Source: Nitrospinota bacterium (GTDB lineage Bacteria; Nitrospinota; Nitrospinia; JACRGO01). From it: a stretch of DNA of 29,422 nt. The translations under genes were made by a program, and so were the position numbers. The stretch is taken from contig JACRGO010000141.1 in the NCBI GenBank assembly GCA_016212295.1, forward strand, positions 1 through 29,422. The letters are read 5' to 3'. Below are positions 2,656 to 20,071 of this stretch, piece by piece; within the stretch, counting starts at the first letter, position 1; each line of letters starts with the position of its first letter. Below the pieces are notes generated by a model that saw only the letters and a program-made list of their open reading frames with translations, did not search any database and was not told the DNA's origin.

Positions 2656-4182
2656 TTACTCCTGGTCCCTGATTTTTTTTGCCGACCCTATCTTTTCCTT
2701 CAGCATCCTGATGTTTTCCCCAGCCATTTTTCGCGCGTAAGCGCTGGGACTGTTTTTCTGTTCCAGTTTGAATTTCTCCAGCGCCTTTTCGTACAGGCCC
2801 ATCTCCGCGTAAATCACCCCAAGATTGTTCCAGTCCGTCCCGCCGGAAGAAAGAGAATCAAGGCTCTTTTCGTACTCGATAATGGCGCGGGTGCGGTTTC
2901 CCCGCGTCAAATAAGCCGTGCCCAGGTTACTGTGGGCGCGTGAGTTGGCTGGATACTTTTTTACCGCGTCTGCCCATAGGTCCAGGTCGCTTGTCCAAAC
3001 GCTGTTCCGGTAAAAGGCCAGGCACCCATTAAACAAGAAAAGCAGGGCGAGGAATGAGGTCAGCAAGACTCGCCGCGCCGGGATTTTTTCACGCGCCATG
3101 CCCAGGACCGCCGCGGCGAATAAAAAGAACCCGGCGGAGGGTATATACAGAAACCGCTCGGCTATCAATATCTTCACTGGAAGGATCTGGCTGACCGGCA
3201 GCAAGGCTATGAGAAAAAAAGCCAGGCCGAAGGAGGCTAGCGGGAGGGCGTCCCTCAATTTATAAACAACAAAAAAAAGGAAAAAAAGCACGGACAGGGA
3301 AAAGAGGACCATTGGATGAAGCAGGGAAAAAAACCTGGGAAAGGCCATGTAATCAACGCAAAGGTTGATCGGGAGGACCAGCAGTTTCACGTAGTACGCC
3401 AATCCAACGGCCATGGTGCAAAATAGGGGGTAGGCCCCTCCGAAGGCGCCGTAATGGATCTGAGTCACGGACCCGACTATGAGGCCGCGCGCCAGAAAAT
3501 AAGCGGCCGCCAGGGCAAGGAGCGGAAGGTATACGGATTTGGCCCTTGAGGCAAGGGAACCATTATTGCTGAAAAAATAATAATCCAGAAGAAAAACAAG
3601 AAAGGGAAAGGTAATGGACATCTCCTTGGCAAGAAGGGCCAGGACAAACAGCGCGGGGACCTTCAGCCCAAGACTGAAAGGCGCGTCTCCCTCAATCCGG
3701 CGTTTCGCGTACACGAGCAAGGCCGACAGGAAAAAAAATCCCGACACGCAGTCATCGCCCCCGGAGATATAAGTGACGGACTCCACATGCGCCGGGGCAA
3801 GGGCGAAGAGCAAGGCGCAGAGGACGGCGGTAAACCCGCTGCCTGAAAGGAGAAGGGTTATTCCGTGCAGAAGCCAGGTCGCCCCGAAATGAAAGATCAA
3901 ATTCACCGCGTGGTATCCTGCGGGATCAAGCCCCCATGCCCTGTACTCAAGAGCGCGAATGGCGGTGCGGAGGGGACGGTATATGTCCTTTTCTCCGTCA
4001 GCGGAAAAGGTTTTAACGGAGGTGAGGAAGGAAGGGACGTTGGATAAGTCACGGATGGACTCGTTGCGCGTGATGGCGGTCCCGTCGTCCCATTGAAAGG
4101 GGGACCGTAGGGCGCCACTAAAGGACAAAAGAATGGCGAGGAAAAGTAGAACAGGGACCAATTTGTTCGAGGCAGGACGCAT
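2656..4182 (-). CDS. TMTC-like GT-C glycosyltransferase with C-terminal TPR repeats
   Basis: A 508-residue membrane protein with an N-terminal hydrophobic helix, a loop carrying SPFQWDDGTAI (the DD motif of the PMT/TMTC type), then YRPL, GYHAVNLIFH and LAPAHVESVTYISGGDD. This order of motifs matches bacterial relatives of the TMTC O-mannosyltransferases. Multiple membrane helices follow to about residue 390. Two or three TPR-like units fill the C-terminal region (SRAHSNLGTAYLTRGNRTRA and TDWNNLGVIYAEMGLYEKAL), likely outside the membrane and able to bind a protein partner. Start ATG at 4182; no strong Shine-Dalgarno. The donor is presumably a polyprenyl-phosphate sugar. With the adjacent ArnT/PMT-like enzyme it suggests protein or envelope glycosylation. 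The exact substrate is unknown. Confidence 0.82.
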   Translation of the reverse strand: MRPASNKLVPVLLFLAILLSFSGALRSPFQWDDGTAITRNESIRDLSNVPSFLTSVKTFSADGEKDIYRPLRTAIRALEYRAWGLDPAGYHAVNLIFHFGATWLLHGITLLLSGSGFTAVLCALLFALAPAHVESVTYISGGDDCVSGFFFLSALLVYAKRRIEGDAPFSLGLKVPALFVLALLAKEMSITFPFLVFLLDYYFFSNNGSLASRAKSVYLPLLALAAAYFLARGLIVGSVTQIHYGAFGGAYPLFCTMAVGLAYYVKLLVLPINLCVDYMAFPRFFSLLHPMVLFSLSVLFFLFFVVYKLRDALPLASFGLAFFLIALLPVSQILPVKILIAERFLYIPSAGFFLFAAAVLGMAREKIPARRVLLTSFLALLFLFNGCLAFYRNSVWTSDLDLWADAVKKYPANSRAHSNLGTAYLTRGNRTRAIIEYEKSLDSLSSGGTDWNNLGVIYAEMGLYEKALEKFKLEQKNSPSAYARKMAGENIRMLKEKIGSAKKIRDQE

Positions 4183-10594: not shown

Positions 10595-10933
10595 TCTTTT
10601 AAAATTCCTTTCTATTTGCCAACGTTTTATATGAACAAAGGCCTATGAACCACGAATTAATCTGAATTTATCGCCCTTTGGGCGGACAAAAAAATCAGGG
10701 GGCAGGAGTCAGGGACCAGGGGCCAGAATATAAAAAATTCCATGTTTAGTTTGTGGCATTATGGCACATTTCAGAATCCTGGCGCAATCAACATTGGGGT
10801 GTGTTTTTCGGGGGTAAAAAGGGGTCAAAAACAATACCTGATGCTTAGCATTCTTTAACCGCGAATGGACGCGAATAGCCCTGGATTTAAAGTGTGTTTG
10901 GGCTTCACGATTACTTCTTGATGAAAAAAAATA

Positions 10934-11168
10934 GTAACTATTCAGTGTGTTTTTATTTTTGTTCTCCTTAAAACTGAATTTTTATAGTTAAAGGGAGCCT
11001 GCGGTCTTTTTACATCCCCCTGGCCCCCTTTTCCAAGGGGGAATCAGGCGATGTCCGGGCGATGGACGGCACAACCCATTCCCCCTTGATAAAGGGGGAT
11101 TAAGGGGGATGTAAAGATGCATTTAACGGCGACTATCGGGGTTATATAATATTTCGCTGAATAGTTAC
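10934..11168. mobile_element. MITE-like nested hairpin element, about 235 bp
   Basis: Perfect 12-bp terminal inverted repeats: GTAACTATTCAG (10934-10945) and CTGAATAGTTAC (11157-11168). Within them lies a second inverted pair (11009-11044 and 11078-11115) reading TTTACATCCCCC outward to inward, and each of these arms contains its own small hairpin of CCCCCTT with AAGGGGG. There is no coding capacity. The CATCCCCCTTAATCCCCC wording is, from memory, a widely dispersed bacterial repeat. Confidence 0.6.
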
Positions 11169-11245
11169 CTTTATTTTTTTAGCAAAGTTTTATAAGCTTG
11201 TAGTACCTTATGGCTCCATAGCCTTGACGGGACTATACTGAAAAT

Positions 11246-11265
11246 ATTTAACAATGGAAAAACTT
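11246..11265 (+). repeat. 20-bp direct repeat, left copy (duplicate of the cysK start)
   Basis: ATTTAACAATGGAAAAACTT occurs here and, identically, at 11966-11985, where it spans the cysK start codon. The copies are 720 bases apart and bracket the MITE-like fragment, HEPN remnant and MNT gene. Confidence 0.8.
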
Positions 11266-11340
11266 ATTAACAGTCTCAAAATAGTATTGATAACCCACCC
11301 CGGCGCTCCGCGCCACCCCTCCAAGGAGGGGAATTTTATG
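11264..11340. mobile_element. Truncated copy of the 107-bp MITE-like element
   Basis: Begins with a left terminal repeat (TTATTAACAGTCTCAAAATA) differing by one base from the complete copy at 19965-20071, followed by the shared core of two GC hairpins (GGCGCTCCGCGCC and CCCCTCCAAGGAGGGG). The right terminal repeat is missing; sequence diverges after about 11340, just before the HEPN remnant. Confidence 0.75.
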
Positions 11341-11354
11341 TACGTTAATTAATT

Positions 11355-11465
11355 ATGAATGTTGATAAGCAGACGGACTATTGGCTGAACTCCGCGAAAG
11401 AGGATTGGGAGGCGGCGCATCAGCTTATTAATGGCGGCAAGTGCCGCCGAAATTACACGATTTGA
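11355..11465 (+). pseudogene. Remnant of a HEPN-domain gene
   Basis: A 36-codon frame from ATG 11355 to TGA 11463-11465 encodes TDYWLNSAKEDWEAAHQLI followed by NGGKCRRNY, which is the opening helix pattern of HEPN proteins (WLxxAxxDxxxAxxLxxxGxY). The rest of the roughly 120-residue domain is missing. The next frame (about 11440-11485) could carry a scrap resembling a later HEPN segment (AEITRF), which would fit an internal deletion; that part is weak. HEPN proteins pair with MNT nucleotidyltransferases as toxin and antitoxin, and an MNT gene follows directly. Confidence 0.6.
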
Positions 11466-11496
11466 TAAAGTTGGCATCCAGGTGGAGGATGTACCA

Positions 11497-11832
11497 ATGG
11501 TTGATAAAACAGTTGTAAACTGCGTCAGGCATTATCTTAAAACGGTCAATGAAACCGGGATACGGGTAACGTTCGGGGTTATTTTTGGCTCCCATGCGCG
11601 GGGTGAGGCCGCAGTGGAAAGCGATGTTGACGTTATGGTGGTATCCCCTGAATTTGACGGAGAAAGAAAACTGGGTGATGTGGCGAAATTGTGGAAGTGC
11701 GCGGCGAAGTCGGAGGAAAATATCGAACCTATTGCGTGTGGGGAACAACAATGGACAGAAGACGAAGGTACGCCAATTATTGAAGTGGCCCGCCAGCAGG
11801 GGCAGATCGTCAGGCTTTACGGCGGGGACTGA
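11497..11832 (+). CDS. Minimal nucleotidyltransferase (MNT), antitoxin-type
   Basis: 111 residues with the MNT signature GSHARGEAAVESDVDVMV, i.e. GS followed by DxD, the metal- and nucleotide-binding site of the small pol-beta-like nucleotidyltransferases. Solo MNT proteins of this size act as antitoxins that AMPylate HEPN toxins in the HepT/MntA type of module. Start: ATG at 11497 with a strong GGTGGAGG at 11481-11488; the frame is open to 11431, but that part overlaps the HEPN remnant. The HEPN gene upstream is reduced to about 36 codons, so this MNT seems to be an orphan antitoxin. It ends just before a word repeat and cysK. Confidence 0.82.
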   Translation: MVDKTVVNCVRHYLKTVNETGIRVTFGVIFGSHARGEAAVESDVDVMVVSPEFDGERKLGDVAKLWKCAAKSEENIEPIACGEQQWTEDEGTPIIEVARQQGQIVRLYGGD

Positions 11833-11834
11833 AT

Positions 11835-11922
11835 CAGTTGCCGGTTTCCAGTTTTCAGTTGACAGGGGAAGACAGAAGACGGAAGCGCATGACACATGAC
11901 GCACGGCCCCTGACGCCTGAAT
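11835..11922. repeat. Word-like intergenic repeat
   Basis: Runs of related short words (TTCCAGTTTTCAGTTGAC, AAGACAGAAGACGGAAG, CATGACACATGACGCACG, CCCCTGACGCCTGA) without coding features. It belongs to the same general class as the CAGGGACCAGG stretches at 10698, 15484, 19698 and 20097. It separates the MNT gene from cysK. Confidence 0.5.
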
Positions 11923-11965
11923 TCTTTTTTGTTTGCCAGAATGTCGTTAATTTTTAACAGAAAGG

Positions 11966-11985
11966 ATTTAACAATGGAAAAACTT
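11966..11985 (+). repeat. 20-bp direct repeat, right copy (cysK start)
   Basis: Identical to 11246-11265. It covers the last bases of the cysK leader and the first four codons, so the gene stays intact even though a copy of its start lies 720 bases upstream. Confidence 0.8.
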
Positions 11986-12972
11986 GTATACAAAACCGTT
12001 GAAATACCAAAACTCACCAGAGGCATAGCCAAGGACTCCACCGAGCTGGTCGGCAATACTCCGCTTGTGCGGCTGAACCGCATAACCGGCGGGGCAAAGG
12101 CGATAGTCGCCGCCAAGCTGGAATCATTTAATCCGATAGGGAGCGTAAAGGACAGGATCGGGGTGTCCATGATCGTTGACGCGGAGGCCAAGGGGCTGAT
12201 AAACAAGAACACGGTAATAGTTGAGCCCACCAGCGGAAACACCGGAATCGCCCTGGCCTTTGTTTGCGCGGCGCGGGGATACAGGCTCATCCTGACCATG
12301 CCGGACACCATGTCAATGGAGCGAAGACAGCTTCTCTCCGTCTTCGGCGCGGAGCTTGTGCTGACCCCGGGCGCGGAAGGGATGCCGGGGGCCATAAGAA
12401 GGGCGGAACAACTGGCGGCTGAAAATCCAGGTTATTTCATGCCGCAGCAGTTCAAAAATCAGGCCAACCCAGAGGTGCACAGGCTGACCACCGCCGAGGA
12501 AATCTGGAGGGACACTGACGGGCAGGTGGATATTCTGGTATCCGGCGTGGGCACAGGCGGGACCATTACCGGGGTCGCGGAAGTAATTAAATCCAGAAAA
12601 CCCGGATTCAAGGCCATCGCAGTTGAGCCTGTGCTTTCACCGGTCCTTTCCGGCGGGAAGCCGGGTCCGCACAAAATCCAGGGCATAGGCGCGGGCTTCG
12701 TCCCTGCCGTGCTGCGGACCGATTTAATCGATGAAATCGTGCAGGTAAGCAACGAGGACGCGGGCGCGACCGCGAGAAGGCTGGCAAAGGAAGAGGGAAT
12801 ACTGGCCGGGATATCCTCAGGCGCGGCAGCCTGGGCCGCCTTGCAAGTGGCCAAAAGACCGGAGAACGACGGCAAGCTCATAGTTGTCGTCCTGCCTGAC
12901 ACAGGGGAGCGGTATTTGTCCACTTGGCTTTTTCAAGAGACCCAGCCGGCTCCGTCCGGGCCGCATTTGTAA
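11974..12972 (+). CDS. cysK: Cysteine synthase (O-acetylserine sulfhydrylase)
   Basis: PLP enzyme forming L-cysteine from O-acetylserine and sulfide in the cytoplasm. The PLP lysine is in [11 protein letters not shown] (Lys59), the substrate loop is [10 protein letters not shown] (residues 85-93), the phosphate-binding loop is [10 protein letters not shown] (191-200), and GISSGAA is near the C-terminus. 332 residues, normal for CysK/CysM, with about 20 extra residues before the family start [17 protein letters not shown] at 11974 with AAAGGA seven bases upstream; the frame is open to 11929 without family support. I cannot exclude CysM or a related beta-synthase. Its first bases are duplicated at 11246. 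A hairpin with a T run follows at 13002-13029. Confidence 0.93.
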
Positions 12973-19964: not shown

Positions 19965-20071
19965 TTATTAACCGTCTCAAAATAGTATTGATATAACCCA
20001 CCCCGGCGCTCCGCGCCACCCCTCCAAGGAGGGGAATTTTTATGTGTGCTCTATTTTGAGACGGTTAATAA
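19965..20071. mobile_element. Complete 107-bp MITE-like element
   Basis: Perfect 21-bp terminal inverted repeats (19965-19985, starting TTATTAACCGTCTCAAAATA; 20051-20071 on the other side) enclose a core with two GC hairpins, GGCGCTCCGCGCC and CCCCTCCAAGGAGGGG, followed by AATTTTT. No coding capacity. A copy lacking its right end lies at 11264-11340. No clear target duplication is visible. Confidence 0.8.

Follow-up and report, generated by a model that had tools for sequence, protein, structure and literature searches.

Elements that integrate at the 5' ends of genes can provide the gene with a new leader. Bacteria are well known to carry TA-targeting MITEs of ~100 to 200 bp (PMC2229807), and template switching that leaves short templated insertions has been described, mostly in eukaryotes (PMC8421209). 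GSX10DXD is the active motif of MntA (PMC7641770). All these systems bear on the locus described here, the 1.4-kb gap between preP and cysK in a 29,422-nt stretch of the genome of a Nitrospinota bacterium (contig JACRGO010000141.1; this whole stretch is called the window). The gap consists mostly of repeats that are dispersed through the host genome (Table 1), and in it a 20-mer from the start of cysK occurs a second time, 720 bases upstream, with HEPN/MNT sequences between the two copies.

Table 1. Features of the preP-cysK region, with positions in the window
Feature	Position	Strand	Description
Second linker + E piece	10665..10744	-	opposite orientation, near preP start
MITE A	10934..11168	+	~235 bp; ends GTAACTATTCAG...CTGAATAGTTAC; at least 27 copies or pieces in genome
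D	11169..11206	+	one half of another dispersed palindromic repeat (CTTTGTTTTTTTAGCAAAGTTTTATAAG..GTAGTAC)
C	11209..11236	+	left part of palindromic dispersed repeat TATGGCTCCATAGCCCTGACGGGACTATGGAGCCAGC; breaks off 9 nt before left 20-mer
Left 20-mer copy	11246..11265	+	8-nt leader + ATG GAA AAA CTT; without ribosome-binding site in front
MITE B	11265..11346	+	left end and body (TATTAACAGTCTCAAAATAG...); right inverted repeat CTATTTTGAGACGGTTAATA absent
HEPN remnant	11355..11465	+	36 codons + stop; homology to HEPN genes over first 29 aa; remaining domain absent
MNT (MntA-like) nucleotidyltransferase	11497..11832	+	111 aa (start ATG 11497, with a further in-frame ATG at 11431)
Linker + E	11893..11960	+	right part of C-linker-E composite; degenerate; ends 5 bases before right copy
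Right 20-mer copy	11966..11985	+	cysK start; AAAGG (11961-11965) directly before
cysK, cysteine synthase A	11974..12972	+	TIGR01139, E 2.6e-142

A whole-genome search of the 3.74-Mb genome found the 20-mer, ATTTAACAATGGAAAAACTT, in two exact copies, which are those placed at 11246-11265 and 11966-11985 by the preliminary description. The only near-copy genome-wide, with 2 mismatches, lies at position 4102 of contig C174, at the start of another gene. Within the window, no further match with up to 3 mismatches was found, and shuffled sequences gave none. The claim that a perfect 20-mer is not expected by chance was borne out by 6,000 Markov simulations with the size and composition of 10595-11985 (orders 1 to 3, 2,000 each), in which the longest direct repeat was 17 nt and none of the 6,000 contained one of at least 18 nt. 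Moreover, it was the sole local (≤2 kb) direct repeat of at least 16 nt outside known classes in the 163 kb of genome scanned, most of it around MITE copies, the classes set aside being tandem arrays, paralogous gene pieces and dispersed repeats. Since the simulations and the rarity of such repeats in 163 kb make chance a poor explanation, the repeat is real and in need of a cause. A caution is that the 20-mer is ordinary gene-start sequence: the match on C174 also lies at a start, as does the match in the one viral contig, of 2.9 million, that carries the 20-mer, there at an ordinary ATG. The C174 gene reads like glycyl-tRNA synthetase, and its start (4105-4121) shares 19 nt, TAACAATGGAAAAACTTGT, with that of cysK. 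A regulatory motif common to gene starts was considered and rejected: a 17-mer with up to 2 mismatches occurred in 7 places in this genome (3 for the reversed control) and in 6 in the genus relative (3 in the control), numbers too few for a claim. An assembly artefact was likewise rejected, as a 20-bp repeat is shorter than the usual k-mers and a misjoin would be expected to leave one copy, not two.

Identity between the two copies ends sharply at both edges; when they were compared without gaps, similarity reached 36 nt at 83%. The right copy is indeed the leader and first codons of cysK, as described before, with the start at 11974 and AAAGGA upstream both correct. Its ribosome-binding site, acagAAAGGAtttaacaATG, resembles that of preP (agAAAGGAattttaaaagaATG), and AAAGGA is correctly spaced from the ATG; such a site is absent at the left copy, whose ATG leads only into a 32-codon dead-end frame (MEKLINSL...). 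As evidence for the native copy, AAAGGA is of moderate weight, some genes of the window being without such a site. The right copy looks native, because it has the ribosome-binding site and because the linker/E piece, the usual companion of C, lies just upstream. As for the left copy, it appears to be a leftover duplicate of that start which became trapped among repeats on the arrival of HEPN/MNT DNA. The top relatives of cysK itself are Dehalococcoidia/Chloroflexi proteins, up to 85% identical, and the only cysK of the genus relative is 60% identical and located elsewhere. The host genome carries outer-membrane genes (TolC family) despite its Chloroflexi-like cysK, and, given this and the distance to the gene of the genus relative, cysK was likely acquired horizontally.

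Comparison with other loci of the genome shows directly which repeats surround the copies, how they are ordered and where they are truncated, and that C, E, MITE A and MITE B each belong to a repeat family. At C97:39341-39466 and on C33, C135 and C81, C, linker and E form one ordered unit. In the window, C stops at 11236, and linker/E, oriented the same way, restarts only at ~11893; about 30 bp of the unit are absent. We infer that the two pieces were once one unit, guardedly since the E piece (11917-11960) is degenerate and the pieces may have come separately. In the interval from C to the left copy, the 8 bases CTGAAAAT (11238-11245) are unaccounted for. No Rfam family reached threshold.

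The MITE-like fragment reported between the copies is MITE B, present with one end only. Its family gave 39 end matches in the genome compared with 0 in the control, and full copies elsewhere are ~105 bp long with 20-bp terminal inverted repeats, the aligned copies ending TA...TA. Inverted ends, together with TA target duplication in many copies, place the family among TA-targeting MITEs; the copy next to the left 20-mer has lost its right end after 11346, where the HEPN leader follows. On its right side, the left 20-mer stops at the end of MITE B. Elsewhere in the same window, at 19965-20070, MITE B is present in full with its two inverted ends. No autonomous parent of MITE B was seen, the paired ends being ~105 bp apart, and the MITE B end had no match in the viral collection.

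The HEPN remnant and the MNT antitoxin-type gene that had been recognized from the letters of this DNA were both recovered. Over 29 aa the remnant is 48% identical to the beginning of an intact HEPN gene at C195; PF05168 matches that gene and one at C122, but not the remnant. The homology ends at a perfect short hairpin, GGCGGCA-AG-TGCCGCC (11433-11448). The MNT protein keeps an intact GSX10DXD motif (GSHARGEAAVESDVD) and matches PF01909 with an E value of 5e-8; its score against the NCBIfam MntA model NF047752 is 26.5 bits, below the cut-off of 60. The closest MNT relatives in the host genome and phylum are 31 to 35% identical, with 31 to 33% for the best in the phylum set, and the gene therefore appears to be foreign or an old arrival. 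No relative of it was found in the viral and plasmid collections. At another HEPN/MNT cluster of this genome (C195:500-5000), the last ~99 bp of an MNT gene occur three times (locus positions 1973-2070, 2794-2892 and 3460-3558), 93 to 96% identical and with other genes between, a pattern that reads as repeated partial duplication of an antitoxin gene end.

An unoccupied form of the site was not encountered among relatives. In the sole congener, the two flanking genes, preP and tolC, are on separate contigs, neither adjoining cysK. Other members of the class are much more remote, and none of the genomes compared has this cysK at this place. Furthermore, the relatives of cysK that a scan of genome contigs brought up were all distant, with Chloroflexi supplying the best, and the plasmid collection had no match to the region.

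The reading that we prefer, at somewhat better than an even chance, is that part of the cysK start was copied by local duplication or template switch during a rearrangement and survives as a relic, the left 20-mer, and that this 20-mer is neither an attachment site nor a target-site duplication. The gap between preP and cysK would then be a mosaic of the host's own small palindromic repeats, and the native order upstream of cysK would most likely have been the C-linker-E composite, AAAGGA and the ATG. DNA of a HEPN/MNT pair may have landed within this composite, with the loss of ~30 bp of it, since C lies on one side and linker/E on the other and the two form one composite elsewhere. If the native leader consists of linker, E and AAAGG together with the right copy, it follows that the left copy is the extra one, carried at the left-hand boundary of the insert. 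This junction would have kept 20 nt matching the cysK start, between the truncated C on the left and the MITE B end on the right, and later loss of most of the HEPN coding sequence would have left an orphan MNT gene. The order of these events and the copying mechanism are what we infer from the arrangement; counting against them, the C junction has no conspicuous microhomology, and 11238-11245 are left over. The preliminary description had offered, as its second option, a partial duplication of the cysK leader followed by insertion, and this option fits better than its first, with C (11209-11236) and linker/E (11893-11960) being one composite elsewhere. A more specific version, which we consider quite doubtful, is that a transposase-cut MITE end was repaired by copying 20 nt of the nearby gene start, a templated-insertion scar at a bacterial MITE; copying at the cut end would set the edge of the copy exactly on the MITE end.

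The first option had been an insertion that regenerated the gene start in the manner of an attachment site: a HEPN/MNT element would have inserted after codon 4 of cysK, duplicating 20 bp as direct repeats and supplying a new leader and ribosome-binding site from its right end, and the rest would have decayed and host repeats come in later. An exact 20-bp direct repeat at the 5' end of a gene does bracket foreign-looking DNA, and the identity halts abruptly on both sides. However, the 700 bp between the copies (11266-11965) contain no recombinase or transposase frame, MITE B, which abuts the left copy, uses 2-bp TA targets and not 20-bp ones, and the AAAGGA of cysK would fall inside the supposed insert, which would have to start at a host MITE end and finish at a host E repeat. 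Moreover, a mobile source finds little support in the collections, where just one viral contig carries the 20-mer, at the ATG of a gene start, and MNT has no viral or plasmid relative, and no comparable local direct repeat of the same kind exists elsewhere in the 163 kb. The attachment-site claim is not supported by these data, and we regard a target or attachment site as unlikely.

Similarity that runs past both edges of the 20-mer (83% over 36 nt) would also be expected if the 5' part of cysK, or all of cysK, had been duplicated in tandem before the HEPN/MNT DNA came and had then been eroded to 20 nt by MITE B on the right, C on the left and deletions. Repeat elements do lie near both edges of the left copy, and the missing right end of MITE B is consistent with a deletion there, but a copy so eroded should not stay perfect over 20 nt without selection, and the TA target of MITE B mismatches the cysK sequence (AACTTGTATAC) unless 2 bp were lost. 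An old tandem duplication of this kind therefore seems rather improbable to us. That two gene-start-like sequences came to match by coincidence is the most far-fetched account: TTTAACAATGGAAAAACTT is a common type of start, the unrelated C174 gene has 19 nt of its start in common with cysK and the viral contig carries the 20-mer at an ATG, but 0 of the 6,000 simulations gave 18 nt or more, the copies are 720 bp apart and the left one starts no gene. Three routes are to be considered, a template switch, an old eroded tandem duplication and an unknown element with a 20-bp duplication, and copying or duplication is favoured over target duplication. Between the first two, sequence alone does not separate.

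Our verdict is that the locus is a real yet ordinary scar in a repeat-rich intergenic region. Its significance outside the locus is small, but it illustrates that a gene start next to foreign genes can be repeated exactly over 20 bp without marking an attachment site, the host repeats around it giving the better explanation, and it records an orphan MNT gene with a broken HEPN partner.

With integrative elements at gene 5' ends the locus has in common a short direct repeat with the gene start inside it, but it has no recombinase, spans only ~700 bp and has no mobile relative that we found. With type VII HEPN/MNT (HepT/MntA) toxin-antitoxin systems it shares a PF01909 protein that has GSX10DXD and is encoded next to the start of a HEPN gene. 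The HEPN of such systems is intact, with RX4HXY (class I) or the full domain (class II), whereas the one here is cut to 29 homologous residues and consequently is without RX4HXY. MITE B is like RUP of pneumococcus and Correia/NEMIS in its ~105 bp, 20-bp inverted ends, TA ends and tens of copies, a likeness of architecture, and the copy at the left 20-mer is without one end. MMBIR-type templated insertions are described mostly from eukaryotes, and the left junction here is without clear microhomology, but in both cases a rearrangement junction near palindromes carries an exact copy of a short stretch from nearby.
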